Source: a virus
Reading direction: 5' to 3' (one strand)
DNA: 46,740 bases
IMG/VR virus record: IMGVR_UViG_3300019776_000448
Location: 1 to 46,740 of that record
The notes beneath the pieces are model-generated. The model had not been told where the DNA came from and did no database searches. It saw nothing but the letters and a program-made list of their open reading frames with translations. The position numbers and the translations under genes were made by a program. Positions 4,779-38,553 of this stretch are shown piece after piece; position 1 is the stretch's first letter, and each line of letters starts with the position of its first letter.

Positions 4779-7700
4779 ATGGCCTTCACACCTGAACAAT
4801 ACGCATCGGCGGGGCAGTGGATCGCGGCGAACCTCGATGATCCGAATCTGATCGCGAGTACTGCGAGCAGCCTAGGTCTGACGGCTAACGACCTTTTAAC
4901 CGCAGCCCAAACCGTTTATCCACATTTAAGTATAAACGACGTTACTGGATATTTTCGGGAAGCAGGCACCAGTTATCAACCGCCGGTTTACACTCCAGAG
5001 CCCGGACCTGTATCTCTAACTACATCGAGTGGGGGTGAAGGTGGGGGCGCTCTTGCGTCTGCAACACTAGTTACTGCAAATAACAACGCGACCGCTCCGG
5101 GCGGCATTGGCCTGGATACGATGGGCCAATCTGGTATCCCTCAATCGACTGGTGCCCTTTCAGTCGTTACGGACCCATCAGCAGGTGCGGATACGACCCT
5201 TGGCGGGGTGAACACGACCGCGCCCACTGGAGCGCTTGCTTTATCGGCAAATGCGAGCAAAGATACTTCGGTTCTTTCGGATAAATCACAAGCCAATTGG
5301 CTCGAAGAAGACGAGACCTCTGCTGGTGGTGACCCTAGAACTGTATATGTAAATCCGTCCACTGGCGAGCGGGTAAGTTCCGATTTCTACTTTAAATATG
5401 CGAACACACCCGAGGCTATAGCCTACCGAATGGCTGATGCACCACGCCAATGGTACTTGCAAAACAGCGGACTCGACGCTTACAACGCAACCGCAGTTTG
5501 GGATATAGCGTCCGGTTACAAAGACCCGGGCGAAAACAAAGATTATTCGGCAGGGCTTAGTAAATACTTGGCTGATCAACTCACCGCGCGTGGGATCACC
5601 GATGTGTACGGTGGCGTAAATCAAGAAATAATTAAAGGTTCCCCCGGAGAAGATATCCCAACGGACGCAGGTTCATATAACGTCGGAGCCACGCCTGATG
5701 AAACCAAGTATTACAACAAAGCAACCGGCAAAGAAATCGACCCGGTGTTGTTCGACGATAAAGCCGGAACTCGATTCTTAATAACAGATAAAGGAGTAGT
5801 GAAAGAGTTCGACGCGTCTAAGCGAGTTGGAGTTCAACTCGGTGCCTATCTTGATCCGAATTCTTCTGGTGGCGCTTGGACCACGCAATCGGGTAAGAGC
5901 AGCGGACCTGGATTCGGACCGGAAGGCATGATGAACCAGATCGCGCAGCGACTGGTAAGTGCTACGGGAATCACAGATATAAATCAGCTCGGATTCAGAG
6001 AAGTCGATGCTCCGGTTACGCTTGCGGTTGGCGATCCTTATGGAGATGGGCAACTTTATAGACTAAGCGGAACTGGAGAGGATTCTCACTGGGTGCCTTT
6101 AACAGCGGCTGAGACGGGACAGGTGCGTAAGGTAAATGATGGGGAGGGCGGGGTTCGTTTAGAAATAGATTCAACTGAAAAACGGTCAGAAACATACAAC
6201 AAAGAAACTGGTCAAAAAATCCGCGACGGAAATACGATTGACCTGGGCGGTTGGGGTGAGGGTCCGGGCATGACCTACGCCTACGTCACGGACAAGGACG
6301 GTAAACCGTACATTACGACTTACGGCGAAGATACTACTGACCCATTCATTAAAATGGTTGCGAAAGCAGGGCCGATTTTGAACGTAGTGAACGTTCTTAC
6401 CGGCGGCGCATTAACCCCGATTGTGACTATCGCCAATACGATCAACGCAGCTACTGCAGCTTACAACGGTAATTTTTTACCCATCGTTTCACAAGGTTTA
6501 GGTTTCGGCGCGGATATGGGGTTCATCGATCCGAGCGTAGCGAATACGATCCAGACCGGGATTAAGGTTTACGATGCTGTCGACAAAGGTAACGTATTAG
6601 GTGCCTTATCTACCGTCGCTGGTAGCAGTCTCGGCGCAGACGTAGGTAAGATCGACCTCGGCGGATTCACAGTTTCCGACGTCATGGCGGGTGCGAACGC
6701 CCTTGACCAATTAAACAAAGGTAACTGGGGCTCTGCTGTCACTCTGGCCGGTAAACTGATGGACAGTCCGGATATACAGACCGCAGGTAATGCTATCCGC
6801 TTGATCCAAGCAGTAGACAAAGGCGATTGGAATGCTGCGGCGGGTGCAGGAAAAACATTGTACGGTGATGTAACACGATTAATCAATGACTCCGAAGTCG
6901 CTACGCTCCTCAAAAACAGCTCCGGGATCGGCGCGATTGACGCTGACGCTGGTGGTGCATTAACTGCAGCTACTAAAACCTTGCAGGACGTGAGTGGTTT
7001 ATCGACTGTCGTCGGCGCTACGGGTAATGATGTAGGATTCTCCGCTTTTAGCACCGCGAAACAAGCAGGACTCGACGACAAGACTGCATTCGATGTGTCT
7101 AAAGTCGTAGTAGGAACTCCAGGCGATGCGAACAAGGCGGTAATCTCGCGCGACACAACTTACGATCCCGATCTCGTGGATGCTACTGCGGGACAGGATC
7201 TAGCCACCAAGATCTCCAATGCCAACGAGGCGGTGCGGATGGGTGCTGGAGAATCCGTGGGTACGAGCGAAATTAAAGCGGGAGCGGGTGAGTTCGCAGG
7301 GGCGGGTGCCTCCCAGGCGGTGACCGAGAAGATTTCCAATGCCCCGACATTTAGCGACGCCTACGCTGCGGCCAGAGAAGCATTCGGTCCGAATTCGACT
7401 TTTAACTACCAGGGTAAACTCTACAGCACTGCGACCTTCCAAGAGAATCCGAGATTGGGACTCGTAGATGTCGCGGGGAGTGGTCGAGGGCAAGCGACAG
7501 GAAAGACTGCCGAACAGGAAGCCGCGCTTCTAAATACTCAGCAAGCGTTAGCACGAGATGCATCACAACAGGCAGTGGCGTCCACTGGGTTCTTCCAGAA
7601 TCTGTCGAATGCACTCTCGAATCAGATGAAGCTCAGTAGTGACGCCGCGACCGCTTACCTGCAGAACAACCCGAATTCCCCGATCACCGCGTCAGTGAGC

Positions 7701-10193
7701 ACCGCACTCGAAGCCGCAGGGGAACTGCAGAAGAATGTGATTGGCGGCACGGCGCTTATGCTTGATCAAAAGCCTACGGCGGACGCCTTCATTAAAGGCG
7801 GAAACGAACTCATCAAGATGGGTCAGTCGATCGGCACGGGTCCGCAGGATACAAAGAACTGGAACGACACTCTACAGTTAATAGACAAAGCGCAAGGCTT
7901 CGAGAAGCTAGGAGTGATCGCTGGCCGGATCTTAGATGGTACGAGCGGACTCGGTAGACAAACGGCGATCGAACTTCGCCAAGAGCTACCCTCCCTTTTC
8001 CTCGGAGGCGGTACGGCACGTGGCGTGCTCGTGGCCAGTGGGCTCGTTGACACCAAAGACACCGCAGGTGGTGCAGCAATCGATGCATACGACGATGCGG
8101 TAAGAACCGGTAAAAATCATAACGACGCACTTGCCGATGCTCGCAAAGCAGGGTTCGCCGCCGGAGCTACTGAAGCGGCAGTACAGTTAACGATCGGTAA
8201 GCTCGGCGATCTCGCCCTCGGCAAGCTCGACAATGTGATCTCTAAAGGCGTCGGGAGGGTAGGCGCTGAAGGAGTTACCGAAGGTGGGCAAGAGGGCTTC
8301 GCCTCAGCAGCGGTGGATGTGGCTCTCGACCGCGATATCGATGTGAACAAGGCACTCACGCAAGCAGTAGCAGGTACTGCTGTAGGGAAAAGCACGACAG
8401 CTACGACGTCACCGATCTCCGGGGTCCAGGACGCTACCGAATTGCGCGAAGCCGCAGTGGATTCCCAGGGTGTGAGCAATGCGGTGAATAACTTGCAAAG
8501 CCTGTACGGGAGCGACAAAGCATCGACAATTGTGCAATCACTCACTTCCGCTACAGATCTTAACGCGGCGGGACAATCAATCGCGAAGGACCTCTCCGGC
8601 CTCATGGGCGATGACGCGGCGGTGAAGACCGCGAACACGCTAGTGTCGAACTTCGCCGTGAACAATGCAGCGGACACGATGGCTACCCAAGGCCTGAATG
8701 TGAATAACCTTTCCACCGTAGTAGGCAACACCGACTCGGGTGGTACGATCACCCTTGGCGATGCGCTCGGAGCCGCAATCACTGGGAACGGAGTCAAAGT
8801 AAATACCAGCACCGTGGTGGGTACGAAAGCCGACGGCTCAAACCTCACGCTCGGTGAACTTTCAGGCGTGGTTAAAGGCGGTGGCACTTCGGTGACCACT
8901 GCGACCGGACCTGCGGTTACAGCGGGGATTGATACTAAATCCGGAGTGACGACTGATACTAAGTCCGGAGTAACGGCTGCTACTGGACCTGCAGTTACAG
9001 CGGGGACCGATACTAAGTCTGGAGTAACGGCTGATACCGGATCTGCAGTTACAGCGGGAACTGACACTAAGTCCGGGGTAACGACTGCTACTGATACTAA
9101 ATCCGGAGTAACAACTGCTACTGATACTAAATCCGGAGTAACGACTGATACTAAATCCGGAGTAACGACTGCTACTGATACTAAGTCCGGAGTCACGACT
9201 GCTACTGGTACCAAAGTCGGTGTTGATTCTACGGCCGGAATAGACTCTTCGGTGTTGGTGGATCCGACTACGGGGGTCAAAGTCGACACGAAAGTCGACC
9301 CCACCGTAGATGTCGTCACCCAAGTGATCACCGATCCAAATGCAACTTCCACGGTAACGGTAGACACGACGACGAAAGTAACTACTAACGTTACCGTAAA
9401 CAACAGCACCGGAAGTTCGACTGAAATAGTCCTTAATGAGACCACGGGTGAAGTCGTAATCACCACTAAAGGTGATGATGGGTCGATTCTCGAGACTGAG
9501 ACTACTACGGTACAGCAATTAACTCCTGAGCAAAAAGAAAAGCTCTCGGTTAAAGACCCGAAGACACTGGTTAAAAAACCGGCGTCAGGTGGAATGCTGC
9601 GTGGTGCTGGACCCCAGGCGACGTCCAAGATCGACATGCCCGAAAGCGTCTGGCTCGGAGGCAGATTTAGGACTGATTTGCCGTCTATAATGGCCATGTT
9701 CCCCTTTCTATTCCCGAATGCCGAACAACAAGAGGCACAATCCGTATCTGCTCTGCGACGTGCATCGGGAGTCGAGCCACAAGTACCCAAGAAGGATGAT
9801 ATGGACTATTATGCATACGGTAAAGAGCCTTCGATCGATAGCGTTCTTGAGCCATTCTTAAATGGGGGATCTGTCCAAAAGCATGCTCAAGGTGGTATAA
9901 TAATGCCTTCAGCGCTGCAGGCTGCAGCTGGCGGTACACCACATAAGGGATCGCACTATGTACAAGGAGCAGGTGGTGGTCAGGACGACCTAATTCCTGC
10001 ACGGCTCGCGGACGGTGAGTACGTTTTCGACGCAGAAATCGTGGCGGCGCTGGGCGACGGGTCGAACAAAGAAGGGGCGCGAAGATTAGATGCGATGCGC
10101 GAGGCGATCAGGAAGCATAAGCGGTCGGGGTCGATTAAAAAGATCCCACCCCCTGCGAAAAGCCCTTTAGCTTATTTTAGAGGATCGAAATAA
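4779..10193 (+). CDS. Giant virion protein, ejection or tape-measure-like
   Basis: 1804 residues, the largest gene. The N-terminus is a helical block (FTPEQYASAGQWIAANLDDP). Residues about 160-560 hold repeated motifs of the type KYYNKATGKEIDP. A middle Ala/Gly-rich region (about 520-1250) has hydrophobic stretches. Residues about 1385-1478 form a Thr/Lys repeat tract. The C-terminus has GGSVQKHAQGGIIMPSALQA followed by DDLIPARLADGEYVFDAEIV and ALGDGSNKEGARRLDAMREA, a well-recurring tail end of large virion proteins in short-tailed phages. Size, repeats and position before three more putative internal proteins suggest a protein ejected with DNA or lining the tail. No lysozyme or transglycosylase motif was recognised. 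Confidence 0.6.
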   Translation: MAFTPEQYASAGQWIAANLDDPNLIASTASSLGLTANDLLTAAQTVYPHLSINDVTGYFREAGTSYQPPVYTPEPGPVSLTTSSGGEGGGALASATLVTANNNATAPGGIGLDTMGQSGIPQSTGALSVVTDPSAGADTTLGGVNTTAPTGALALSANASKDTSVLSDKSQANWLEEDETSAGGDPRTVYVNPSTGERVSSDFYFKYANTPEAIAYRMADAPRQWYLQNSGLDAYNATAVWDIASGYKDPGENKDYSAGLSKYLADQLTARGITDVYGGVNQEIIKGSPGEDIPTDAGSYNVGATPDETKYYNKATGKEIDPVLFDDKAGTRFLITDKGVVKEFDASKRVGVQLGAYLDPNSSGGAWTTQSGKSSGPGFGPEGMMNQIAQRLVSATGITDINQLGFREVDAPVTLAVGDPYGDGQLYRLSGTGEDSHWVPLTAAETGQVRKVNDGEGGVRLEIDSTEKRSETYNKETGQKIRDGNTIDLGGWGEGPGMTYAYVTDKDGKPYITTYGEDTTDPFIKMVAKAGPILNVVNVLTGGALTPIVTIANTINAATAAYNGNFLPIVSQGLGFGADMGFIDPSVANTIQTGIKVYDAVDKGNVLGALSTVAGSSLGADVGKIDLGGFTVSDVMAGANALDQLNKGNWGSAVTLAGKLMDSPDIQTAGNAIRLIQAVDKGDWNAAAGAGKTLYGDVTRLINDSEVATLLKNSSGIGAIDADAGGALTAATKTLQDVSGLSTVVGATGNDVGFSAFSTAKQAGLDDKTAFDVSKVVVGTPGDANKAVISRDTTYDPDLVDATAGQDLATKISNANEAVRMGAGESVGTSEIKAGAGEFAGAGASQAVTEKISNAPTFSDAYAAAREAFGPNSTFNYQGKLYSTATFQENPRLGLVDVAGSGRGQATGKTAEQEAALLNTQQALARDASQQAVASTGFFQNLSNALSNQMKLSSDAATAYLQNNPNSPITASVSTALEAAGELQKNVIGGTALMLDQKPTADAFIKGGNELIKMGQSIGTGPQDTKNWNDTLQLIDKAQGFEKLGVIAGRILDGTSGLGRQTAIELRQELPSLFLGGGTARGVLVASGLVDTKDTAGGAAIDAYDDAVRTGKNHNDALADARKAGFAAGATEAAVQLTIGKLGDLALGKLDNVISKGVGRVGAEGVTEGGQEGFASAAVDVALDRDIDVNKALTQAVAGTAVGKSTTATTSPISGVQDATELREAAVDSQGVSNAVNNLQSLYGSDKASTIVQSLTSATDLNAAGQSIAKDLSGLMGDDAAVKTANTLVSNFAVNNAADTMATQGLNVNNLSTVVGNTDSGGTITLGDALGAAITGNGVKVNTSTVVGTKADGSNLTLGELSGVVKGGGTSVTTATGPAVTAGIDTKSGVTTDTKSGVTAATGPAVTAGTDTKSGVTADTGSAVTAGTDTKSGVTTATDTKSGVTTATDTKSGVTTDTKSGVTTATDTKSGVTTATGTKVGVDSTAGIDSSVLVDPTTGVKVDTKVDPTVDVVTQVITDPNATSTVTVDTTTKVTTNVTVNNSTGSSTEIVLNETTGEVVITTKGDDGSILETETTTVQQLTPEQKEKLSVKDPKTLVKKPASGGMLRGAGPQATSKIDMPESVWLGGRFRTDLPSIMAMFPFLFPNAEQQEAQSVSALRRASGVEPQVPKKDDMDYYAYGKEPSIDSVLEPFLNGGSVQKHAQGGIIMPSALQAAAGGTPHKGSHYVQGAGGGQDDLIPARLADGEYVFDAEIVAALGDGSNKEGARRLDAMREAIRKHKRSGSIKKIPPPAKSPLAYFRGSK
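8931..9215 (+). repeat. In-frame tandem repeat tract (DTKSGVT units)
   Basis: Inside the 1804-residue virion gene, the unit gatactaa(a/g)tccggagt recurs with small changes. In protein terms there are eight copies of DTKSGVT, separated by TTAT or by a longer spacer of the form TGPAVTAG that occurs three times. The tract stays in frame throughout. Such arrays can change copy number by slippage and normally make flexible, extended linkers. The edges are approximate because units degrade at both ends. Confidence 0.85.
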
Positions 10194-14948: not shown

Positions 14949-15025
14949 GCGATCCTTATTTCGCGCACCCGCATGAACCCTACCCCGGCGATGACCTATG
15001 CGGCCCGTGGAGCAGGGTTGCCGTC

Positions 15026-15292
15026 TGGAACCCCTCGAGACCGTTCCATTGTTCCATTATGGTGGAACAGAGATGGAACAGCCCACTGGCTCCGAGGCCC
15101 CGTCGGACGGGCGTTCTGAGGCAGTGGTATTCCTGTTCCACCGTTCCATCCGGTATATATACATATTCAGGTTCGAAAACACGAATGGTATACGTATATA
15201 TGCATGGAACAATGGAACAATTGCCGAGAGGCCTTACGTGACGGGGGTTCTGGCCGTTCCATCTGTGTTCCATTATGATGGAACGGTGGAAC
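15026..15292. repeat. Left array of GTTCCAT/ATGGAAC words, inverted copy of 37438-37689
   Basis: In the non-coding stretch 14896-15396 there are twelve copies of GTTCCA(T) or its complement at 15043, 15051, 15063, 15073, 15135, 15143, 15204, 15212, 15256, 15267, 15278 and 15287, plus an outlying TGGAAC at 15026. They are arranged as two forward, two reverse, two forward, two reverse, two forward, two reverse. 15267-15284 is a near-perfect 18-base palindrome. The central gap holds AT-rich TATATACATATTC and TATACGTATATATGCAT. Read on the minus strand the whole region aligns with the right array with the same order and nearly the same spacing. Short frames across it are low-quality and I do not call a gene. 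Confidence 0.9.
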
Positions 15293-15314: not shown

Positions 15315-15343
15315 TTGCGCTCCGGGGAGAGATGTATTATAAT
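15315..15343 (+). promoter_or_regulatory. Sigma70-type promoter for the primase-helicase operon
   Basis: TTGCGC at 15315-15320, 17-base spacer, TATAAT at 15338-15343. It is the only promoter-like sequence between the left array and the primase gene, and starts 23 bases after the last array word. The -35 is weaker than in the other early promoters. The transcript would carry the leader with ATAGAGGA at 15382-15389. Confidence 0.65.
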
Positions 15344-15352
15344 TATACCAGC

Positions 15353-15364
15353 CCACCGAGGTGG
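15353..15364. promoter_or_regulatory. Operator-like inverted repeat just after the early promoter
   Basis: CCACC (15353-15357), GA, GGTGG (15360-15364) is a five-base inverted repeat at roughly +4 to +15 of the transcript predicted from the promoter at 15315-15343. A site here could block RNA polymerase or act as a small RNA hairpin. No matching site was found at the other promoters. Confidence 0.35.
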
Positions 15365-15396
15365 TGTCAATAGTAATAGATAGAGGAACGTAAAGG

Positions 15397-16950
15397 ATGG
15401 AAGGGTTAGTGAACGACTTCGCCGATTTATTCTCGGGGAACCTGCGCTCTTACGGGCGATGGGATCCGATCTCCGGGAACATGTCGACGGTAAAAGGAGA
15501 GGTCTCAAACGACCAGTACCTGGAACACCTGGAGGGTGGAATCGGGTTAGGGATCGTTCCGGTGACGGACGGTGGCACCTGCAAGTTCGGGGCAATTGAT
15601 GTGGACAAGCACGAGTCGCCGGAAGATATCGATTTCGAGGCGTTGCAAGCCAAGATCAACGAGTACCGGCTCCCGCTGGTGATGTGCCGGACCAAACGCG
15701 GGGGTGCACACCTGTACCTTTTTGGCGAGGAATATCTCCCGGCCAAGCAGGTGCGACGGGTGCTCGGGTCGTGGCGGGATGTGCTGGGGATTAAGCACAA
15801 GACCGAGATCTTCCCGAAGCAGGACTCGCTTGTAACTTCGAGTGGCGAGAAGGCGCTGGGGAACTGGATTAACCTTTGTTACTTCGACGCCGAGCAGACG
15901 CTCAGGTACGGATTTGACGATGACTGCAACAAGCTCTCGTTCGATCTCTTCCTACAATATGCACAAAGCAAGCGCGTCACCGTCGAGCAACTCGCCGAGC
16001 TTACCCTTCGCGAGCACCTGGAGGCACCGCCCTGTATCCAGAAGATGATTCACTCCGGCGTCGAGTCTGGTGCTCGGAATGAGGCGCTGTACAATGTCAC
16101 CGTGTACCTGAAGAGGGCGAGACCCGATAACTTTTTCGATGATGCGATAGCGCTTAATGGTACGATGTTCGATAAACCGCTCGGGAACGCGGAAGCGAAA
16201 AAGGTTATTCGTTCCGCCTCGCGGCGCGACTACCTGTATCGGTGTGCCGAGGAGCCCTGCAAGTCGCTTTGTGATCGGAAGGTGTGTGTAACCCGCGAGT
16301 TCGGGATCTCGATGGACGAGAAAAAAGAACTCGACGCTCACGACGCGCTACCCCAGTTCTCGGAGCTGATTGAGTACCTGTCGGACCCGCCCCGGTGGGG
16401 AATACACGTCAACGGACAGTTGATCTCGAACATCCCGACCGTGGTGCTGAGGGACCCGAGCCTGATGGGTACACTCATTTTCGAGCGACTTAAGATCAAC
16501 ATCCCGAAGATCACCCTTGATAATTGGCGCTCCCGGGTGCTGGATCCGCTTGTGCCGAATATCCGGACGATCGAGGTGCCGAAGGAGGCGTCGGCGTCGG
16601 GGATCGTGCAAGCGAAGTTCGCCGAGTTCGTGCAGAAGGCCGATCTGTCCAAGGACGGGAAGGACACTAATGACCGTAAAGCGTTGCTGCGCAACATCCC
16701 GATCGTACAGGTCATCGACGGGACGCGTTGCGTGGTGTTCCGGGGGACCGCCTTCTCCGAGTATTTGAAGCGCAATAAAGCCGAAGTCCAAACCGGCATG
16801 GATCTGTGGACCACGCTGCGGCGCGATTGCAACGCTTCACACGACAAAATCCGCGTACCGGGTGGCAAGACCCTGAACGTCTGGTACGCTCCAATCACCG
16901 AGGAATATGAGGTCAAGGTCGATGAGCCTGAATTTACCACCGAATTCTAA
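15397..16950 (+). CDS. AEP-type DNA primase (TOTE family)
   Basis: 517 residues. It is an archaeo-eukaryotic-primase-fold enzyme that would lay down primers for replication. Motif I is IDVD with Asp68 and Asp70, motif II is GGAHLYLF with His105, and motif III is EIFPKQ with Glu137; these are the metal- and nucleotide-binding residues of the family. A four-Cys cluster around residues 283-297 (CAEEPC, LCDRKVC) is the zinc knuckle usual in TOTE-type primases. The C-terminal 200 residues are helical and resemble a primase accessory region. ATAGAGGA and AAAGG precede the ATG. The downstream SNF2 helicase gene overlaps its 3' end, a coupling also seen in TOTE systems. Confidence 0.85.
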   Translation: MEGLVNDFADLFSGNLRSYGRWDPISGNMSTVKGEVSNDQYLEHLEGGIGLGIVPVTDGGTCKFGAIDVDKHESPEDIDFEALQAKINEYRLPLVMCRTKRGGAHLYLFGEEYLPAKQVRRVLGSWRDVLGIKHKTEIFPKQDSLVTSSGEKALGNWINLCYFDAEQTLRYGFDDDCNKLSFDLFLQYAQSKRVTVEQLAELTLREHLEAPPCIQKMIHSGVESGARNEALYNVTVYLKRARPDNFFDDAIALNGTMFDKPLGNAEAKKVIRSASRRDYLYRCAEEPCKSLCDRKVCVTREFGISMDEKKELDAHDALPQFSELIEYLSDPPRWGIHVNGQLISNIPTVVLRDPSLMGTLIFERLKINIPKITLDNWRSRVLDPLVPNIRTIEVPKEASASGIVQAKFAEFVQKADLSKDGKDTNDRKALLRNIPIVQVIDGTRCVVFRGTAFSEYLKRNKAEVQTGMDLWTTLRRDCNASHDKIRVPGGKTLNVWYAPITEEYEVKVDEPEFTTEF

Positions 16951-18661
16951 AGAAACGAGTATTGATTATGATCCCAAGACCGGACGATTCATCGTCTCTT
17001 CCCCGCCTTGGCTTTTGGAAAAAGTGCGACAGATTCCTAATCGTCGCTGGGATTCTCGTCGAAGAGTCTGGACTGCTCCTGCGCTGCGAGCTAATGCTGA
17101 GTATATACTCGGTGCTTTTCAAAGTCGCTGTTTTACAGATCGAGCTTCTGCTGCAGCTAATGCTGCTCTTGAGAAATCCCGACCTGTTCAAGGCTCGAAT
17201 TTCCCGACTGGTTACGTTTTCCGAACTAGTCCTCGACCATACCAAAGACAGGCTCTGGATCGCGCATACGACAAGAATGTCTTTGCATACTATATGGACA
17301 TGGGTACAGGGAAAACGAAAGTCTCTCTAGATCTTCTGGGCGCATTGTACTTGGACCGGAAAGTAGACCGCCTCCTCGTCGTCGCTAAGTTCTCGACCCG
17401 CAAGAACTGGGAGCGTGAGGTCGGTATTCACCTGCCCTTCGAGGCGGACATTATGGTGCTCGATACCACGAAGCCCAAAGTGTTCGAAAAGTGGAACACG
17501 ACGGGTGATCGGTTCAAGATCCTTATCGTCGGCACCGAATCGCTCGCCGCAGGGTCCGCCGTGAACTACGCGGATGCATTCCTGATGGTCTCGACTCGGG
17601 CCGCGATGGTGGTGGATGAGGCACACATGATCAAGAACCATTCGGCGGTGAGGAGTAAGGCTTGCGTCTCGCTCGGCCGCAAAGCCGAGTACCGGTTTAT
17701 CATGACCGGCACCCCGGTGGCGAACGGTCCGATGGACGTGTTCATGCAGTTCGAGTTCCTGGACCCGAATATTATCGGGATAGGGGATTTCTATTCCTTC
17801 CGTAATCGCTACGCGGTGATGGGCGGCTACGAGGGGAAGGAGATCGTCGGGTACCAAAATCTGGATGAACTAATCGAACTGATCTCCCCTTTTATCTTCC
17901 AGGTGCGGAAGTCCGAGGTCCTCACCGAGTTGCCTCCGAAAGTGTTCGCCGTGCGCGAAGTGCAGATGACTGATGAGCAAAAAAGATTATATAGACAGAT
18001 TTCTAAAGAAGACAAAGCAGTATCTGGAGATCGAGGCGTCACCGTCAAGTCCGTGCTCGAGCGGATGCTCAGACTACAGGAGATCTGTGGCGGGATCATT
18101 GCGTACGAGCGGAATCCTGACCTTTATAACCCGGACAAGTACGAGCATTGTCGTATCCCGGGTAAGAATCCGAAGGTCGAAGAGCTGAAGGCGATCATGG
18201 AGGAGACCGACGGCGCGGTGATCATTTGGTGTCGATTCCTGGAGGAGATCGCGATGGTTAGCGAGGCCTTACGCGAGACTTACGGTCGGCGATCCGTAGT
18301 CGAGATTCACGGCGGTATCGGGGAGCAGCAGCGGGACGATAACGTCCAGGCATTTCAGCGCGGCGAAGCGCGGTTCCTAGTCGGCAATGCGGCAACGGGT
18401 GGTGTGGGGCTGAATATGACTCGGGCCGAGACCGTGGTGTATTTCTCGAATTCGTTCTCCTTTACTGATCGTGATCAGTCCGAGGATCGTGCGCATCGGA
18501 TCGGGCAGACGAAGTCGGTGACTTATATTGATCTGGTGTGCGAAGGGTCGGTGGACGAGGTCGTGCTCGATGCATTGCGGAGCAAGAAGGACGTCTCTGA
18601 ATACGTGCGCCGAAGCATTAATGATGCAAACGAAGATATCTTACGTCGATTACTCTCCTAG
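16922..18661 (+). CDS. SNF2-family helicase with HARP-like N-terminal domain
   Basis: 579 residues from ATG 16922 (AAGG four bases upstream); an in-frame ATG at 16907 would add five residues. Residues about 10-85 (YDPKTGRFIVSSPPWLLEKV, NRRWDSRRRVWTAP) resemble the HARP domain that binds forked DNA. Then come the superfamily 2 motifs: MDMGTGKT (about 126-133), VVDEAHMIKN, IMTGTPVANG, VGNAATGGVGLNMTRAETVV and QSEDRAHRIGQTKSV. It is the replication-module helicase candidate, translated with the primase. Bases 16965-17330 use many T-ending codons, unlike the rest, as if the N-terminal domain had a separate history. Confidence 0.88.
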   Translation: MSLNLPPNSKETSIDYDPKTGRFIVSSPPWLLEKVRQIPNRRWDSRRRVWTAPALRANAEYILGAFQSRCFTDRASAAANAALEKSRPVQGSNFPTGYVFRTSPRPYQRQALDRAYDKNVFAYYMDMGTGKTKVSLDLLGALYLDRKVDRLLVVAKFSTRKNWEREVGIHLPFEADIMVLDTTKPKVFEKWNTTGDRFKILIVGTESLAAGSAVNYADAFLMVSTRAAMVVDEAHMIKNHSAVRSKACVSLGRKAEYRFIMTGTPVANGPMDVFMQFEFLDPNIIGIGDFYSFRNRYAVMGGYEGKEIVGYQNLDELIELISPFIFQVRKSEVLTELPPKVFAVREVQMTDEQKRLYRQISKEDKAVSGDRGVTVKSVLERMLRLQEICGGIIAYERNPDLYNPDKYEHCRIPGKNPKVEELKAIMEETDGAVIIWCRFLEEIAMVSEALRETYGRRSVVEIHGGIGEQQRDDNVQAFQRGEARFLVGNAATGGVGLNMTRAETVVYFSNSFSFTDRDQSEDRAHRIGQTKSVTYIDLVCEGSVDEVVLDALRSKKDVSEYVRRSINDANEDILRRLLS

Positions 18662-21772: not shown

Positions 21773-22048
21773 ATGAAACAGTACGACAACACCAATTCCG
21801 GTCTACTGATGCGGAATGAAAATCGGACCACAGACTCGCACCCTGAGTTCACTGGATCGCTCAACGTTGAAGGTCGCGACTTTTGGATATCGGCCTGGGT
21901 TAACACCGGCAGACCCGGGTCCAAGATCGAGGGGAAGCGCTACTTCTCGATTAAGGTCACGCCGAAGGACGCCCCGAACCGTGCGAACACGGGTCGCAAG
22001 AACGCGGCGACGGATTTCGACGATATAGACGACGATATCCCATTCTGA
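21773..22048 (+). CDS. Small SSB-like protein with DDDIPF tail
   Basis: 91 residues. The body is one compact strand-rich unit (GLLMRNENRTT, HPEFTGSLNVEGRDFWISAW, KIEGKRYFSIKVTPKD) that fits a minimal OB-like fold, followed by a short linker and an acidic end DIDDDIPF. That ending is the protein-interaction tip of bacterial single-stranded DNA-binding proteins. It is first in the operon with the DNA polymerase. I infer that it coats single strands and recruits host or phage replication proteins by the tip. At half the size of bacterial SSB it is not a simple homologue. Confidence 0.7.
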   Translation: MKQYDNTNSGLLMRNENRTTDSHPEFTGSLNVEGRDFWISAWVNTGRPGSKIEGKRYFSIKVTPKDAPNRANTGRKNAATDFDDIDDDIPF

Positions 22049-23886
22049 TGAACATCCCACGCATTGACGGCCAAATCCCCTACTTGGTGGTGGACACCGA
22101 AACCACCGGCCTGAAGTGGTGGGAGGATGAGGTATTCGGAGTCTCGATCGCACTTCCCGACGGCACCGCCGGGTACTGGGATGTACGGGCGACGCCGAAG
22201 ATCCTGAATTGGTTAAGCGATCTTATCGCCGAGGATCGGGTCGGGGTGTGGGTCGGGCATAATTTCAAGTTCGACCTACACTTCCTGCGTGAAGCTCGGG
22301 TGGGTATCCCGACCGACCGGATCGATTGCACGATGATTCGGGCGGCGCTAATCAACGAGCATGAACCGACCTACGGGCTGGATTTCTTGGCGCGGAAGTA
22401 TGTCGGGGCGCAGAAGGACACGGAGATCTACGATGAACTGGCGAAGATATTTGGGGGTCGTGCTACACGCAACGCGCAGATGCCGAACATTTCACGCGCT
22501 CCTCAAGAGATCGTGGCGCGGTATGCAATCCAGGATGCGGTAGTTACGCGAAAGCTCTACCTGTGGCAGCGCGACGAGATCGAGAAGCAGAACCTGCATC
22601 GAGTCCACAGGCTCGAGCGCGAACTGATGCCCGTCATTATCGATATGGAGACCGAGGGAGTGCGGGTCGACGTCGATATGGCCGAGAGAGCCTCCCGACA
22701 CCTCACGAAGCGCATCGACGATATGCAGCGGGACTTGAATACGGAGGCCGGGTTCGAGATCAACCCGAACCCTTCCGGATCGATCGCACAGCTATTCAAG
22801 CCGACCCTAGGGGAGGATAATGAGTGGTACCTGATCGACGGAACTCGGGCAGGGAAGACTGATGGCGGGAAGGCATCAATCGATGCCGATTGCTTGCGTC
22901 GTATGAAGCATCCGGCGGCGAAGATGATCCTCGATCTCCGCAAAATGCTCAAGACCCGCGACACTTTCATTCAGGGCCATATTCTCGGACACCAGCAGGA
23001 CGGGGTGATACACTGCAACTACAACCAGACCAAGAACGATGCGGAGGCCGGGACCGGCACCGGACGGCTCTCGATCACGAATCCGGCGCTGCAGCAGATT
23101 CCGTCGCGGGACGTAGCGATCAAATCGCTCGTGCGCCCGATCTTCAAGGCGGATCACGGCGCGAAATGGCTGGGGCTCGATTGGTCGCAGTTCGAATTTC
23201 GGGTGGCGAATCACTACGGGCAGGTGCCATCGATCCTGGAAGCTTACCGGGCGAATCCGAATCTGGACTTCCACCAGTTGGTGTCCGACATGACCGGCAT
23301 CCCCCGGAACGCGCAGTACGCCGGGGGTCCCTCCTCGAAGGCGATCAATCTCGGGCTTGCTTTCAATATGGGCTCCGGGCGGCTGGCCCAAGAATGCGGA
23401 CTTCCCTACACCGAGGAGACGGGACCGAATGGGAACGCGTACCTGAAGGCGGGACCCGAGGCGATGGAGCTTTTCGAGCGGTACCATGCCGCGAACCCCG
23501 GGATGCGGAACATGGCGAGCAAGGCGAGTTCGATCGCCAAAGAACGCGGGTTCGTGCATTCGATCATGGGGCGGCATATCCGATTCCCGGGTGGGCAATT
23601 CGTGCACAAGGCGTCGGGGCTGATTTACCAAGCGACGTCGGCCGACTGCATGAAGATGAAGCTCATTGAGCTGCACCGTTACTTAACCGGCCACGGGGTG
23701 GGGCGGCTGCTGCTGTCCGTGCACGACGAGGTCGGGATCTCGCTCGATAAGGATTCGTTAAATCACGCCGAGAAGATCGCGCAGATTTACACTACATTTG
23801 ATGGTATCGATTGCCCGATCAAGCTCCGGGTACCGATTACCTGTGATTGGGGCTTGGGTGAAGATTGGTACGAGGCAAAAGGATGA
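22048..23886 (+). CDS. dpoZ: Family A DNA polymerase with 3'-5' exonuclease (DpoZ class)
   Basis: 612 residues. The exonuclease domain has VVDTETTG (Asp16, Glu18), HNFKFDLHFL and YAIQDAVVTRKLY. The polymerase domain has GTGTGRLSITNPALQQIPSR, motif A LDWSQFEFRVANHY (Asp378), motif B SSKAINLGLAFNMG (Lys431) and motif C LSVHDEVGI (Asp560). There is no 5' nuclease domain. In motif B the position equal to E. coli 762 is Leu435 and that equal to Tyr766 is Phe439. It overlaps the SSB-like gene by one base and purZ by four. In Z-genome phages this linked polymerase copies DNA with dZTP; the DpoZ name here rests on that linkage and on size. Confidence 0.88.
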   Translation: MNIPRIDGQIPYLVVDTETTGLKWWEDEVFGVSIALPDGTAGYWDVRATPKILNWLSDLIAEDRVGVWVGHNFKFDLHFLREARVGIPTDRIDCTMIRAALINEHEPTYGLDFLARKYVGAQKDTEIYDELAKIFGGRATRNAQMPNISRAPQEIVARYAIQDAVVTRKLYLWQRDEIEKQNLHRVHRLERELMPVIIDMETEGVRVDVDMAERASRHLTKRIDDMQRDLNTEAGFEINPNPSGSIAQLFKPTLGEDNEWYLIDGTRAGKTDGGKASIDADCLRRMKHPAAKMILDLRKMLKTRDTFIQGHILGHQQDGVIHCNYNQTKNDAEAGTGTGRLSITNPALQQIPSRDVAIKSLVRPIFKADHGAKWLGLDWSQFEFRVANHYGQVPSILEAYRANPNLDFHQLVSDMTGIPRNAQYAGGPSSKAINLGLAFNMGSGRLAQECGLPYTEETGPNGNAYLKAGPEAMELFERYHAANPGMRNMASKASSIAKERGFVHSIMGRHIRFPGGQFVHKASGLIYQATSADCMKMKLIELHRYLTGHGVGRLLLSVHDEVGISLDKDSLNHAEKIAQIYTTFDGIDCPIKLRVPITCDWGLGEDWYEAKG

Positions 23887-24998
23887 AGAAAATCGATTTG
23901 GTCATTGACCTTCAATTCGGTAGCACAGGCAAGGGGCTGATCGTCGGCACCCTTGCCACCTACGAGGGATACGACACGGTGATTACCGCATGGGCACCTA
24001 ATGCGGGGCATACGTTCATTGATGCTCGAGGGCGAAAGTTCGTACATACGCATCTGGCCAACGGCATCGTGGCCCCCTACCTTCGTAGGGTACTGCTGGG
24101 TCCAGGCTCGGTCATCAATCCGGCGCAGCTTCTGGCCGAGATCGAGCAGTGCAAGGATATAATCGAAGAGAAGCGAATCAAGATCATGATTCACCCGCAT
24201 GCAGCGGTGGTGACTGATGAGCACTTGGAAGAGGAAGCGCAAAGCATGACGGCGATCGGCTCGACCAAGAAGGGCGTGGGTGCGGCGATGATCTCCCGAA
24301 TCCGTCGGCAGCCGAACAAACCGGCCGTCGCGAAGGACTTCCTGGAACTCGTGAATCTGGTGTGCACCACCGAGCAGTACACGCGAGCGATCCACGATTC
24401 GACTCATATCCTAATCGAGGGTGCGCAGGGTGTGGGGCTCTCCATGTACCACGGTTTCTACCCCTACACCACCTCGCGGGACGTCAGCACCTTCCAAATC
24501 CTGGCCGATTGCGGGATCCCGGCGGCGATCTTCAATCAGGCCTCCTGTCGTGTGGTCGGCACCGCGCGGACCTACCCGATCCGGGTGGCTAATCGATTCG
24601 ATTCGGACGGGCGGCAGGTGGGCTTCAGTGGGCCGGGACACCTGGACCAGACCGAGATTTCGTTCGAGCAGATTGGCCAGCCGACCGAGCTCACCACGGT
24701 GACCAAGCTCCCCAGGCGCATTTTCACATTCAGTCGGCAGCAGATCCTCGAGGCGATTGACCTTTCGGGTGCGAGCGAGGTGTTCTTAAACTTCGTGAAT
24801 TATGTGCAGGACGAGCAGTACCTGCTATCGATCGTGAACGCGATCGAGGAGACCGGGGCTCGGATCAAATGGCTGGGTTTAGGCCCAGATATCCACTCGG
24901 TGGTGATGCTGTCCGAGGGTGATAATTACACGGCGCGGCGTAAAGAGATCGTATCCAAGTGGCAGCGTTATCAGTTTCGTAATAAAGTAGGAGCTTAA
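23883..24998 (+). CDS. purZ: PurZ, N6-succino-2-amino-dAMP synthase
   Basis: 371 residues from ATG 23883, which overlaps the polymerase stop and has GAGG eight bases upstream; an in-frame ATG at 23865 would add six residues and is less likely. It is related to adenylosuccinate synthetase PurA. The phosphate loop reads QFGSTGKG: the catalytic Asp of PurA (in GDEGKGK) is replaced by Ser14, the known mark of PurZ. Other family blocks are APNAGHTF, TAIGSTKKGVGAAM, LIEGAQGVGLSMYHG and YPIRVANRFDSDG. PurZ joins aspartate to dGMP using (d)ATP, the first committed step to dZTP. The product is converted by host PurB and kinases. Confidence 0.92.
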   Translation: MKKIDLVIDLQFGSTGKGLIVGTLATYEGYDTVITAWAPNAGHTFIDARGRKFVHTHLANGIVAPYLRRVLLGPGSVINPAQLLAEIEQCKDIIEEKRIKIMIHPHAAVVTDEHLEEEAQSMTAIGSTKKGVGAAMISRIRRQPNKPAVAKDFLELVNLVCTTEQYTRAIHDSTHILIEGAQGVGLSMYHGFYPYTTSRDVSTFQILADCGIPAAIFNQASCRVVGTARTYPIRVANRFDSDGRQVGFSGPGHLDQTEISFEQIGQPTELTTVTKLPRRIFTFSRQQILEAIDLSGASEVFLNFVNYVQDEQYLLSIVNAIEETGARIKWLGLGPDIHSVVMLSEGDNYTARRKEIVSKWQRYQFRNKVGA

Positions 24999-25001
24999 AA
25001 G

Positions 25002-25520
25002 ATGGCGAATGAATTCATAATGAACTCGTTGCTTCACACCAACGAGCAAAATCCCCTCCCTTGGTCCATCCACCCAGATACCGATTTAGTGGTAGTGGAT
25101 GCGAACGGGGCGGCGGTCGCGAACTTCGAGGTCAAGCACCAGTATAACGGGGTGCTTGCGAATTGCGAAAAGAACGCGGACTTGGCCGTACGGTCCGTTA
25201 ATGCTTTCGCCAAGCGCGGGGGAGCAGATATTCGGCGGCTGCAGCAGGTGGTCACCACTTGGGCGGACGAGGTGTTCCCGAATAGGAGAACACCCGACAT
25301 TTTGCTTAAGCTCTACGAGGAGGTGGGCGAATATGCCCGGGATCCGAAGGCGGCGGCAGAGTTCGCGGATATAATGATTCTGCTGCTCGATCTGGCGGCG
25401 ATTAATGGCATCGATATTCAAAAGGCGGTGACCGAAAAAATGGCGATTAATGTAGGACGTTCCTGGACCGTGGACTCTCAAACCCGTATTATGAGGCATA
25501 CACATGATGAAAAACCGTAA
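25002..25520 (+). CDS. mazZ: MazZ-like (d)GTP pyrophosphohydrolase with N-terminal extension
   Basis: 172 residues. Residues about 95-140 carry the MazG-type metal site: EEVGE (Glu106, Glu107, Glu110) and EFADIM (Glu120, Asp123), followed by LLLDLAAINGIDIQKAV. In Z-genome phages MazZ hydrolyses dGTP to dGMP, feeding PurZ. The first 70 residues are a separate module (NPLPWSIHPDTDLVVVDANG, then ADLAVRSVNAFAKR) that occurs in unrelated phage proteins, so this is a fusion or has gained an extra domain. AGGAG lies 8 bases before the ATG; the gene follows purZ by 3 bases and overlaps the next. Confidence 0.85.
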   Translation: MANEFIMNSLLHTNEQNPLPWSIHPDTDLVVVDANGAAVANFEVKHQYNGVLANCEKNADLAVRSVNAFAKRGGADIRRLQQVVTTWADEVFPNRRTPDILLKLYEEVGEYARDPKAAAEFADIMILLLDLAAINGIDIQKAVTEKMAINVGRSWTVDSQTRIMRHTHDEKP

Positions 25521-25719
25521 TGAAGTATTCGAGATCTGGTACACGCGTCGGTTTGGCGAGTTACTAGGCGAACAGGACTCGCACACCAGGGAATTCGTGC
25601 GAGAGATATGGAATCAGGCGCTCAGTCGTGCCGTGGATCACTTCGAGTTCGAGAATTTCGAACCGCTCGAAAGTGGACAGATCATCGACCGGCTTGAGCG
25701 TCTTAAAGCGATAAGGTAA
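25504..25719 (+). CDS. Small unknown protein between mazZ and datZ
   Basis: 71 residues, helical and charged (EVFEIWYTRRFGELLGEQDS, HTREFVREIWNQAL, IIDRLERLKAI). There is no cysteine, signal or membrane segment. It overlaps mazZ by 17 bases, has GAGG 7 bases before its ATG, and ends 5 bases before datZ, so it is surely co-translated with the Z pathway. No known Z-pathway enzyme is this small; a regulatory or stabilising role is only a guess. Confidence 0.7.
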   Translation: MMKNRNEVFEIWYTRRFGELLGEQDSHTREFVREIWNQALSRAVDHFEFENFEPLESGQIIDRLERLKAIR

Positions 25720-25724
25720 CCAGG

Positions 25725-26273
25725 ATGGGTCTTTCTCTAGCTGAACAGCTCCGTGCTTCGCACGTCAAGCGGTGGCAGATCGTCAACGTCTCGCGCACTC
25801 AGAATCTCGCGGAGCATCATTTCAACGTCACCCTCATCGTCGGCCAACTCGCTCGGCACTGCAGGGACAAGCAGCTGCTCGACCCTCAGTACGCGTTGAG
25901 GCTCATGCACTGGTCGCTCTCGCACGATATGGTCGAGGTTCGCACCGGGGACACCCCGACGCCCTACAAGCGGGTGTTGAAGCAGGTGGGTGGGCTGGAC
26001 ATTATCGACAAGTCCGAGGAGGTAGTGGACCCGGGGTACATCGCCGACAAGCGTCGGATCGCTGGGACGCCCATCGAAATGTACGTGGAGATCGCGGACT
26101 TGATCGAGGCGATTTGGTTCTTGAGTGACCACGGGATCGGGCAGAGTGCAGTCGCTGTCCGGGCTGGGCTTGAAGCGTCGCTCGACCGATGTGTACAGAA
26201 GTGGCATGGGGTTTTCGAGGAATTAGATATTGATTTCGCGGTGCGCCGCGTGAGCGAGGAGATCGGGATATGA
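25725..26273 (+). CDS. datZ: DatZ, dATP triphosphohydrolase (HD domain)
   Basis: 182 residues. The HD-domain metal ligands are visible: His31 in AEHHFNV, His67-Asp68 in SLSHDMVEV, and Asp125 in EIADLIEA. Next to them are RWQIVNVSRTQNLAEH at the start and RTGDTPTPYK in the middle, the pattern of DatZ and its relatives of the YfbR type. DatZ removes the triphosphate from dATP and so prevents adenine from entering phage DNA. Trp17 and Ile19 lie where DatZ is reported to hold the adenine base (from memory). Its clustering with purZ and mazZ makes this better supported than a general 5'-nucleotidase. Confidence 0.9.
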   Translation: MGLSLAEQLRASHVKRWQIVNVSRTQNLAEHHFNVTLIVGQLARHCRDKQLLDPQYALRLMHWSLSHDMVEVRTGDTPTPYKRVLKQVGGLDIIDKSEEVVDPGYIADKRRIAGTPIEMYVEIADLIEAIWFLSDHGIGQSAVAVRAGLEASLDRCVQKWHGVFEELDIDFAVRRVSEEIGI

Positions 26274-29360: not shown

Positions 29361-29613
29361 TTTGAATGCAATACTCGAGGAGCGAGGCTCCGAATACGGC
29401 GATTTCACCGCACAGGCGCAAATCTCCCAGGCGTTACAGGACATAACTAGGGCCGGGCGCAGCTACACCACGATGGACTCTTACCAGAGGGAGGCGCTCG
29501 CAATGATTTTACACAAAATCTCTAGGATCGTTAATGGAAACACTAGGAACGTTGACTCGTGGGCGGATATCGCCGGATATGCCACACTCGTTGCAAACCG
29601 GCTACAGAAGTGA
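29350..29613 (+). CDS. DUF6378-type phage protein
   Basis: 87 residues from ATG 29350, chosen because GGAGG at 29336-29340 lies 9 bases upstream; an in-frame ATG at 29329 has no such site. The whole protein follows a known small phage family: ILEERGSEYGDFTAQAQISQ, QREALAMILHKISRIVNG and DSWADIAGYATLVANRL. These are helical proteins of unknown function common in replication regions. It overlaps the stop of the preceding gene by 11 bases. Confidence 0.85.
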   Translation: MTIDLNAILEERGSEYGDFTAQAQISQALQDITRAGRSYTTMDSYQREALAMILHKISRIVNGNTRNVDSWADIAGYATLVANRLQK

Positions 29614-29620
29614 AGGGGGA

Positions 29621-29649
29621 TTGACAGATTATAGCACCCGTGTTATAAT
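29621..29649 (+). promoter_or_regulatory. Consensus promoter of the small-gene operon at 29685
   Basis: Perfect TTGACA (29621-29626), 17-base spacer, perfect TATAAT (29644-29649) with TG-T extension. The leader runs to ATAGAGGA (29672-29679) and the ATG at 29685. It lies in the 71-base gap after the DUF6378 gene. Confidence 0.87.
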
Positions 29650-29684
29650 AGAGTCTCCAGTAAACAAACCGATAGAGGACGAAA

Positions 29685-31508: not shown

Positions 31509-31521
31509 GGAGCCAGATCTA

Positions 31522-31550
31522 TTGACGAGTTGTCCCACTGGTGTTATAAT
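31522..31550 (+). promoter_or_regulatory. Promoter of the DUF932 gene
   Basis: TTGACG (31522-31527), 17-base spacer, TATAAT (31545-31550) with the TG extension (TGTTATAAT). The initially transcribed bases AGAGGTTC are shared with the promoters at 34392 and 35840. The leader has ATAGAGGA (31569-31576) and the ATG is at 31585. Confidence 0.83.
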
Positions 31551-31584
31551 AGAGGTTCATCAATCACAATAGAGGACATCTTAA

Positions 31585-34420: not shown

Positions 34421-34471
34421 AGAGGTTCGTTAGTAGCAAACATTCCACCCAAACCGATAGAGGAAAACGCA

Positions 34472-35833: not shown

Positions 35834-35839
35834 CTGGGG

Positions 35840-36886: not shown

Positions 36887-37344
36887 GTGCGGAAAAGAAC
36901 CTCTGGGGCTGGCTCGACCTGCGCCTCGGGGGCCACTGGTTCGCGCAACGAGTCGAGAACGAGGTCGGCCGTGACACCCCGGACGTGTGGTTCGCGCTGT
37001 GCAAGCTCCGCGCGGTCTCGGGCTGGATCGAACTCAAGGTCCTCACCGACCTACCCAAGCGCCCCGGCACCCCTCTCCGGCTCCCGAAGTGGACCTCCGG
37101 GCAGCGCAACTGGGCGGTGTCCGCACACAGGCACGGCGCTCGCTGCTTCCTGGGGTTGCAGGTCCTCGAACGCCAGGAATTCTTTTTGATCCCCGGGTAC
37201 GAGGCGGCACTATTGGTCGAAATGCAGGTGCCGTACGAAGAGACGCTGCACAAACTCCGCGTCCGAGGGCTGTGCGTGGGCCAAAAGACTTCACGTGAAA
37301 CACAAACGCAAAGACTAGTTGACACGCTGCACCAGCCGTGGTAA
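36883..37344 (+). CDS. Putative PD-(D/E)XK nuclease, GTG start
   Basis: 153 residues from GTG 36883, which overlaps the preceding stop (GTGA); the longer frame from 36694 covers another gene. The residues fit a PD-(D/E)XK core: Glu25/Glu27 in QRVENEVG, Asp34 in DTPDVWF, and Glu50-Leu-Lys52 in GWIELKV, followed by WTSGQRNWAVSAHRHGARCF with the helper Gln. VRR-NUC-like and resolvase-like phage nucleases share this pattern. It may act on replication intermediates. The final codons carry the promoter at 37319-37347. Confidence 0.65.
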   Translation: MSAEKNLWGWLDLRLGGHWFAQRVENEVGRDTPDVWFALCKLRAVSGWIELKVLTDLPKRPGTPLRLPKWTSGQRNWAVSAHRHGARCFLGLQVLERQEFFLIPGYEAALLVEMQVPYEETLHKLRVRGLCVGQKTSRETQTQRLVDTLHQPW

Positions 37345-37347
37345 GAT
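37319..37347 (+). promoter_or_regulatory. Promoter reading into the right non-coding region
   Basis: TTGACA (37319-37324), 17-base spacer, TAAGAT (37342-37347) with TGG before it. It lies in the end of the nuclease gene. No gene starts for more than 500 bases, so its first product is a structured RNA running into the right array. Confidence 0.65.
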
Positions 37348-37437: not shown

Positions 37438-37689
37438 GTTCCATTGTTCCATCATGATGGAACACAGATGGAACGGTCAGAAGCCCCGTACGACGGACCA
37501 GAGAGCCAAGTGTTCCATTGTTCCATGCATATATACGTATATATTTTTGGTTCGAAAACCTGAATATGGGGGGATATGAGATGGAACGGTGGAACAGAAG
37601 AGGGTACTTGAAGAGAAGCCCCGAGGGACGGGGCCTTTGGACCAGTGGGGTTGTTCCATTGCTGTTCCATTATGGTGGAACGATGGAAC
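37438..37689. repeat. Right array of GTTCCAT/ATGGAAC words, inverted copy of the left array
   Basis: Twelve words at 37438, 37446, 37457, 37468, 37512, 37520, 37581, 37590, 37653, 37664, 37676 and 37683, in the order two forward, two reverse, repeated three times. 37446-37463 is a perfect 18-base palindrome (GTTCCATCATGATGGAAC). The reverse complement of the left array aligns along the whole length, including GTTCCATTGTTCCATGCATA then TATACGTATA, and CCTGAATATG. A GC hairpin lies between words (37618-37634). Neither array is coding by any convincing frame. Confidence 0.9.
37618..37638 (+). terminator. GC hairpin with short T-run inside the right array
   Basis: GCCCCG (37618-37623), loop AGGGA, CGGGGC (37629-37634), then CTTT. 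It could stop transcripts from the promoter at 37319-37347. The left array has a similar GC inverted repeat at the equivalent place (CCCGTC/GACGGG at 15099-15111). Confidence 0.45.
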
Positions 37690-37799
37690 GGATATGACCA
37701 CACCCGTACTACACCTGCAGACTTCCAGACGACAAGGTATCGTCATCCACCACATAGGGCCACACCTCGGTATCGTACGCAAATGCATGAAGGAGAATT

Positions 37800-37850
37800 T
37801 TGACAAGTCTGGTGGAACAGTTGTGGAACACGTTGCGTCTGTGGTACACT
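37800..37850 (+). promoter_or_regulatory. Possible late promoter overlapped by TGGAACA words
   Basis: TTGTGG (37821-37826), 18-base spacer, TACACT (37845-37850) with TGG before it. Two further array words, TGGAACA at 37813 and 37824, cover the -35. A perfect TTGACA at 37800-37805 has no matching -10. Transcription would start at about 37857, at the ATG of the terminase gene, which lacks a Shine-Dalgarno site. The stretch 37690-37857 is otherwise empty of genes. Confidence 0.4.
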
Positions 37851-37857
37851 TCGCGTC

Positions 37858-38553
37858 ATGGCTGGAGTAAAAATCGAACCTTTGCCGGTGGTGGACGTCG
37901 ACGCGGTGGGTGAAGAAACACTGCGCGAGTACGAGCGCCGCGCGGGGATCACGTACGCGATGCTTTACGACATGGTGAAGCAGGACCGTGTTCGTTTTAA
38001 GGAGCGCGGGGTCGAAGAAGACGCCGAGTCATTGATCTTTTGCGTTCCAGGTGTGGAAGGTGTCGGACGTTTACGCAGATTTGAGCGCACCAAGGCCTAC
38101 CGCATGCTGCAAATCCTGGCCGAGTTTCGGGACGGGCCCGAGAACGCGAAGTTCTCCTTAAGACACGCGTACACGTCGGCCGAGGTCAGTCGTGGTGCGA
38201 TGTCCACGTGGAGGGCAGAGCATCCGACCTTCGATCGTCTGATGGAGGACATCCAACTCGAAATGGTCGACACCATGAAAGCCGAGGCCTACCGTCGCTC
38301 GGTGGTCGGACACGACGAGCCGTTGGTACACCAGGGTGTGAAGACGGGTGAAACGATCAAAAAGTATTCCGATTCCCTGCTGCAGTTCACCCTGATGGGA
38401 TACGACGCGAAATTCCGAGCCAAAGACGTAAACGTCGCGGTGTCGGGCTCACTTAACCAGAATGTCAATATTGAGGGACTCCGTGATCGACTTGCCCAGC
38501 GATTACAGGCGGTCGCCAAGTCGAAGGTACAAGGCGAAGAAAGCCCCGATTGA
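37858..38553 (+). CDS. Terminase small subunit
   Basis: 231 residues. The middle and end follow the phage small-terminase pattern: a helix-turn-helix-like KFSLRHAYTSAEVSRGAMST and WRAEHPTFDRLMEDIQLEMV, then VDTMKAEAYRRSVVGHDEPL and DSLLQFTLMGYDAKFRAKDV. The N-terminal 80 residues are extra. It would recognise the packaging site and feed DNA to the large subunit, whose gene follows and overlaps by 92 bases. No Shine-Dalgarno sequence is seen before the ATG, so a leaderless message is possible; the next in-frame ATG would remove conserved parts. Confidence 0.8.
   Translation: MAGVKIEPLPVVDVDAVGEETLREYERRAGITYAMLYDMVKQDRVRFKERGVEEDAESLIFCVPGVEGVGRLRRFERTKAYRMLQILAEFRDGPENAKFSLRHAYTSAEVSRGAMSTWRAEHPTFDRLMEDIQLEMVDTMKAEAYRRSVVGHDEPLVHQGVKTGETIKKYSDSLLQFTLMGYDAKFRAKDVNVAVSGSLNQNVNIEGLRDRLAQRLQAVAKSKVQGEESPD

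Follow-up and report, generated by a model that had tools for sequence, protein, structure and literature searches.

Two non-coding gaps in the window, by which we mean the whole 46,740 bp stretch of phage DNA analysed here, are each occupied by a dense array of short inverted words. Array L (15043-15292) lies between the last structural gene, which ends at 14895, and a primase gene that starts at 15397, while array R (37438-37689) lies between a gene ending at 37344 and terS, which starts at 37858. Both arrays contain 12 core hexamers (GTTCCA or TGGAAC) and share the word order >><<>><<>><<. The arrays, the accessory boxes and promoters that complete elements L and R, and the relevant flanking genes are as follows.

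15022..15030, + strand: outer box CGTCTGGAA of element L, found in the window only here and, inverted, at 37723; it recurs in relatives
15043..15079: first word block of array L (>><<), the inner pair forming an 18-bp dyad GTTCCAT-N4-RTGGAAC
15094..15111, + strand: GC-rich hairpin-like spacer GAGGCCCCGTCGGACGGG of array L
15135..15218: middle block of array L, with two forward words, a 56-bp AT-rich centre and two reverse words
15170-15180: GGTTCGAAAAC, within the centre of array L
15256..15292: third word block of array L (>><<)
15342..15370, - strand: perfect sigma-70 promoter TTGACA-17-TATAAT (12/12 consensus match), directed leftward into array L; its spacer contains the near-palindrome CCACCTCGGTGG
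15397..16950, + strand: archaeo-eukaryotic primase (AEP + PriCT_1) of 517 aa, the proposed origin-binding protein (PHROG primase, E=1e-121; Pfam AEP-TOTE)
16582..16920, + strand: primase C-terminal winged helix, residues ~396-508, the proposed word-binding domain (AlphaFold2, fold comparison, covariation)
16870-16872: codon of primase residue 492
16907..18661, + strand: SNF2-type SF2 helicase, adjoining the primase
37319..37347, + strand: sigma-70-like promoter TTGACA-17-TAAGAT (10/12 consensus match) at the inner end of element R, directed toward array R
37438..37474: first word block of array R (>><<), with dyad GTTCCATCATGATGGAAC
37480..37496: GC-rich spacer GAAGCCCCGTACGACGG of array R
37512..37595: middle block of array R with a 56-bp centre; dyad GGTTCGAAAACC at 37549-37560
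37615..37634, + strand: GC-rich hairpin GAAGCCCCGAGGGACGGGGC in the second spacer of array R
37653..37689: third word block of array R (>><<)
37723..37731, - strand: outer box of element R, beyond its outer end, reading TTCCAGACG on the + strand and CGTCTGGAA on the - strand
37813..37829, - strand: two further TGGAAC words, 11 bp apart, in the gap between array R and terS, with the same spacing in near relatives
37858..38553, + strand: terS, encoding the terminase small subunit, downstream of array R and opening the late block (PHROG terS, E=4e-21)

The arrangement described by the initial annotation, twelve GTTCCA-type words in three rounds of two forward and two reverse, is borne out at L, and the same order is found at R. 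The count of twelve holds for the core hexamers but not for strict heptamers (GTTCCAT or ATGGAAC), which number 9 in L and 10 in R, the remaining words ending in C and not T. These heptamers are 19 of the 20 present in the window, compared with ~0.07 expected in the arrays by chance; the word mix of the window stands at 13 GTTCCA for L and 14 for R. The left region had been taken to begin at 15026. This position corresponds to an additional TGGAAC inside the separate box CGTCTGGAA, and the array itself begins 17 bp further on. The second and third words, and likewise the tenth and eleventh, make up GTTCCAT-N4-ATGGAAC dyads, and the near symmetry attributed to each array was confirmed. The left region had also been read as the reverse complement of 37438-37689. 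As regards orientation this is correct, with a local alignment score of 193 for the inverted comparison against 117 for the direct one and no more than 25 for shuffles, but the inverted copies are inexact, being ~70% alike over the arrays with stretches of 53 nt at 91% and 91 nt at 79% complementarity. An AT-rich centre was likewise ascribed to each array, and applies to the clade of the window (66% AT) but not to most relatives (35-56% AT, with genome means of 41-48%). With most relatives lacking an AT-rich centre, there is no clear sign of classical duplex melting; this counts against a replication origin, as does the GC skew, which shows no sign change at the arrays. Rfam and tRNA scans gave no matches.

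An alignment of 33 elements (L, together with R reversed) from 17 genomes reveals that each element is a composite, made up of the outer box CGTCTGGAA, GC-rich hairpin-like spacers and a central dyad in addition to the words. A second spacer box, TTCGAATGGGAGAGGG, is present in most relatives. Several clades have TGTCGCA-N4-TGCGACA as the central dyad, and their genomes contain this exact dyad at the arrays only. SH-Ab 15497 and PMBT28 have a related dyad, TGTCGCC..CGACA, as a mark of their arrays, and the centre in the clade of the window is GGTTCGAAAAC. Judged by consensus matches only, the L-type promoter scores 11-12/12 in 10 of 17 genomes, the window counted, and a promoter-like match occurs at the inner end of R in 9 of 16. 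No gene was found on the strand of the leftward L promoter. Within the early region, four promoters (29612-29668, 31513-31569, 34383-34439 and 35839-35895) share TTGACA...CACYGGTG-TTATAATAGAGGTTC, with a small palindrome beside the -10 box in each, as if one repressor controls all four.

A pattern scan recovered 26 further array stretches, their spacing mostly identical to the base pair. Conservation of the arrays in close relatives had been set beforehand as the test on which the proposal of a functional element could fail, and the arrays passed it. Among 51 loci with a related primase, an array lies within 700 bp upstream at 46 of the 46 with 66-99% primase identity. Near-complete genomes have exactly two arrays each; some of them have terminal repeats of ~123-127 bases, suggesting circular assembly. 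The second array is located upstream of terS homologues in the family of the window, and the paired, inverted placement at the borders of the early region is conserved across this family. Two arrays each are also present in the cultured phages with a homologous replication module: SH-Ab 15497 (word GGTTGC), JeffCo (GTTACC/GTTTGC) and PMBT28, PSA28, VLCpiS6a and Kokobel2 (all GTTCCA). Of these, SH-Ab 15497, JeffCo, PMBT28 and Kokobel2 are 2-aminoadenine (Z) phages. A genome with a primase of 36% identity (G038, loci L306 and L307) has two GCTACA arrays, inverted with respect to each other (174 vs 38). No array was found upstream of the primase at L079, L080 and L082 (41-45% identical), and many distant primases (30-46% identity) are without an obvious array by the wide-scan method used; hence the arrangement is not universal in the primase family. 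No host of the phage family emerged from a search of bacterial genomes, and we found no description of these arrays in the open-licence literature. Elsewhere in the window, the 1804-aa gene at 4779-10193 contains an in-frame tandem repeat (8898-9253), the middle of which is highly variable among relatives, and 44133-44564 in the structural block gives a weak match to GroES-like co-chaperonins, MW202545 having a chaperonin annotated at the same place.

The mutual orientation of the arrays bears on the proposal that they are recombination sites, which would bridge both boundaries and invert the early segment. Mutually inverted arrays, seen in the window's family (16 of 16 genomes) and also in SH-Ab 15497, JeffCo and the genome with the 36% identical primase, are in keeping with such a role, as is the fact that L and R evolve in concert. 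However, the arrays are direct repeats in PMBT28, PSA28, VLCpiS6a and Kokobel2, and the early region is flipped against the late genes in 0 of 16 related genomes, the window included. DNA inversion is disfavoured on both counts; in addition, no invertase or recombinase was detected among the proteins scanned, which took in part of the small ORFs. We consider it extremely unlikely that the early segment inverts at these sites. Bridging of the two arrays is possible.

The word itself varies among relatives (GTTCCA, GTTACA, GTATCC, GGTTGC, GCTACA), and within each genome it has changed jointly in both arrays. This extends to genomes with mixed words: L and R contain 6+5 and 5+7 GTTCCA+GTTACA in G021, and 3+8 and 2+9 in G015, while the numbers of GTTCCA+GTATCC are 3+9 and 3+10 in G026, and 3+9 and 2+10 in G027. 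Beyond the words, the likeness of L and R is greater within a genome than across clades in most comparison rows. Joint change of L and R requires a common binding protein, exchange between the copies, or both.

We compared the words with protein sequence using 47 primases with typed arrays. Primase residue 492 is T wherever GTTCCA occurs without GTACCA, P wherever GTACCA is also present, V in all GTTACA loci, and P accompanied by a one-residue insertion in the GTATCC loci. The GTTACA, GTTCCA-only and GTTCCA+GTACCA classes, which were partly defined after the alignment had been inspected, are separated by this residue without exception, and it is unique in this respect among 2,458 columns tested (primase, SNF2 helicase, three small early proteins that are gp32/33/34-like, and one tail gene). 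One tail-gene column is specific to the GTTACA class alone and not to all three. In a tree built without the primase C-terminus, V492 was gained three separate times, always with GTTACA; the covariation comprises these three independent V gains and three T/P contrasts, with a sign test on either set alone not significant. One extra locus, L244, which is close to known loci, fits the rule (P492 with GTACCA). No new primase with a complete C-terminus came from three DNA pattern scans aimed at finding more GTTACA, GTATCC and GTTCCA arrays. A gene-by-gene nearest-neighbour comparison did not cleanly single out a gene whose tree follows the word, and in an earlier column scan of all orthologues, terS included, in few genomes, no column could be singled out as tracking the word.

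Position and covariation both bear on the reading of R as a packaging (pac) site, with L as its duplicate. R is found just upstream of terS in the window's family, a usual place for packaging sites. Against this, L is equally conserved ~22 kb away, the second array of PMBT28 and its relatives is not beside terS but 2.4 kb off, and the word tracks the primase and not terS, for which the smaller scan gave no such column. A packaging role thus appears very unlikely.

By fold match, the N-terminus of the primase is a CAPP-type prim-pol (Z 22), and AlphaFold2 models place residue 492 in the wing of the predicted C-terminal winged helix. The nearest folds to the C-terminal half are modest matches (Z about 5-6), among them the initiator proteins SaPI Rep, SCCmec Cch and yeast ORC as well as PadR regulators; at Z ~6, likeness between winged helices can stem from a commonly occurring arrangement. 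Profile scans detected neither a helicase domain nor an AAA+ domain in the primase. The early proteins scanned, which took in part of the small ORFs, match AEP primase, SNF2 helicase, UvrD helicase and PolA, and no DnaB or loader was found among them. Residues ~45-80 of the SNF2 helicase, VRQIPNRRWDSRRRVWTAP in its N-terminus, recall the HARP domain of fork-reversing SMARCAL1 helicases.

On the basis of these sequence comparisons, we propose two replication origins with the arrays as their iteron blocks, the words being bound by the C-terminal winged helix of the primase (probability about 0.6). The elements display one feature of iteron-type origins, short repeats in intergenic DNA beside replication genes, and are likely to be replication origins because the words appear to be recognised by a primase. 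The interpretation in the initial annotation is supported in part: the arrays are conserved and paired at the early-region borders and resemble repeated sites for one protein, as at an origin, with its enhancer-like operator retained as a rival. L would be the origin before the primase and early block, and R that before the terminase and late block. Binding of the words by the winged helix would probably involve dimers sitting on the GTTCCAT-N4-ATGGAAC dyads and flanking half-sites; GTTCCATNNNNATGGAAC is the proposed target DNA of this domain, with residue 492 perhaps contacting word positions 3-4. We infer that word binding loads the primase onto the hairpin-capable central dyad (TGTCGCA-N4-TGCGACA or GGTT-N4-AACC, depending on the clade), and that the inner-end promoters may provide an activating or priming transcript. 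With two sites, replication could have both an early and a late start, or forks could stall at the second site, as proposed for SPP1.

Alternatively, a phage transcription regulator could use the arrays as operators or enhancers to switch between the early and late blocks. Each array stands before the first gene of a block, L at the primase operon and R at terS, promoter-like sites are nearby, the gap between R and terS contains two extra words, and inverted word pairs at one helical turn resemble dimer operators. Nevertheless, the elements are mutually inverted while all genes are co-directional, so that element polarity is independent of transcription. In addition, ~2.4 kb separates the second array from terS in the four cultured phages that comprise PMBT28 and its kin, the strongest L promoter points away from the primase, and the word-tracking residue is located in the primase as opposed to a regulator. 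We judge such a regulatory role to be unlikely.

It is also conceivable that the elements are true origins with words bound by another early protein, in which case the behaviour of primase residue 492 would be a coincidence. Candidate binders are the SNF2 helicase, the gp32/33/34-like proteins and the HTH-like protein at 34472-35053, the genes of which are found both in genomes with arrays and in cultured relatives. In G021 the helicase is unlike those of its neighbours and similar to that of G031, a genome with the same mixed word. However, no column of the helicase or of the gp32/33/34-like proteins separates the word classes as primase residue 492 does, and the 34472-35053 protein, which is outside the 47-locus test, has only insignificant matches to DNA-binding folds; its profiles retrieved no significant solved structural relative. 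Taken jointly with the coincidence it entails, binding by one of these proteins seems decidedly improbable. The early proteins encoded at 34472-35053 and 35102-35818 end in similar HTH-like motifs (LNPGMQRMNLGNMLRR, APNAGVATMRIVNALRR).

The proposed primase-bound origins can be compared with several known systems. The RSF1010 primase RepB' starts at hairpin-like ssiA and ssiB, two inverted copies that are adjacent in one oriV and separate from the iterons. The RepB' structures 3h20 and 3h25 are among the primase fold matches, and the two systems have in common the primase superfamily and hairpin-like sites in two inverted copies; here, in contrast, each element joins iterons with a central dyad, and the elements are ~22 kb apart. 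In satellite P4, ori and crr are cis sites at a distance from each other that carry identical short repeats, and a primase recognises them via its C-terminal winged helix. Separated repeat sites and a primase with a (here predicted) C-terminal winged helix are thus shared with P4, but the arrays described here are larger and mutually inverted, and belong to a phage and not a satellite. The P4 alpha protein, in the account of Ziegelin 1993 given by PMC8628076, joins primase, helicase and origin recognition, whereas the helicases are separate proteins in the present case. SaPI Rep recognises iterons through its C-terminal domain, and both SaPI Rep and SCCmec Cch/Cch2 combine 5-6 nt iterons with an initiator C-terminal domain (PMC7581432); the primase C-terminus finds its best fold matches in them (Z 6.2-6.4), with only parts of it matching SaPI Rep/Cch (Z ~6). 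Rep and Cch are helicases, each with a single origin next to its gene, unlike the primase-borne domain and two candidate origins found here.

A further parallel is with SPP1, a lytic siphophage with two distant, similar origins (oriL and oriR, ~13 kb apart), one near early replication genes and the other among late genes, whose repeats are bound by one phage protein; a switch to concatemers has been proposed to occur when forks meet this protein at the second origin (PMC6316719, PMC3485210). Two similar elements, with a putative origin role, are present in every near-complete genome of the set studied here. SPP1 differs in having direct repeats and an AT-rich unwinding element, as opposed to inverted word pairs and a centre that is often not AT-rich, and in using gp38, a loader and a DnaB-type helicase, where the proposed binder here is an AEP primase beside SNF2- and UvrD-type helicases. 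In their proposed action the elements are akin to the SPP1, P4 and SaPI systems but belong to none of them, as a defining feature of each is missing.

PurZ, MazZ-like and DatZ-like enzymes and a PolA-type polymerase are encoded in a row at 22048-26273 of the window. A PurZ profile match was obtained in 26 of 30 related records, with a profile that also matches the ordinary adenylosuccinate synthetases used as controls. Gene content suggests that a modified base, 2-aminoadenine (Z), replaces adenine in the DNA of this phage. The early region also encodes a histone-deacetylase-like protein (26501-27331, E=1e-21). Z:T pairs alter the meaning of "AT-rich". Origins normally need easily melted AT-rich DNA, and Z:T pairing should hinder this (PMC8342488). 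The lack of a conserved AT-rich centre, together with a hairpin-capable dyad, is consistent with a melting problem in Z-DNA. A tentative and somewhat speculative scenario is that phages with three-bond Z:T pairs replicate from two paired composite origins, with a primase-recognised hairpin dyad replacing AT-rich melting; one origin would start early replication, and the other would block or restart forks to give concatemers.

The joint word change in two sites 20 kb apart constitutes a natural record of protein-DNA coevolution. With regard to how replication starts in 2-aminoadenine DNA, candidate origins can now be named in SH-Ab 15497, JeffCo, PMBT28 and Kokobel2, as can a candidate initiator and the single residue thought to set its sequence choice. 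With candidate origins, initiator and specificity residue named, origin use in Z-DNA becomes directly testable.
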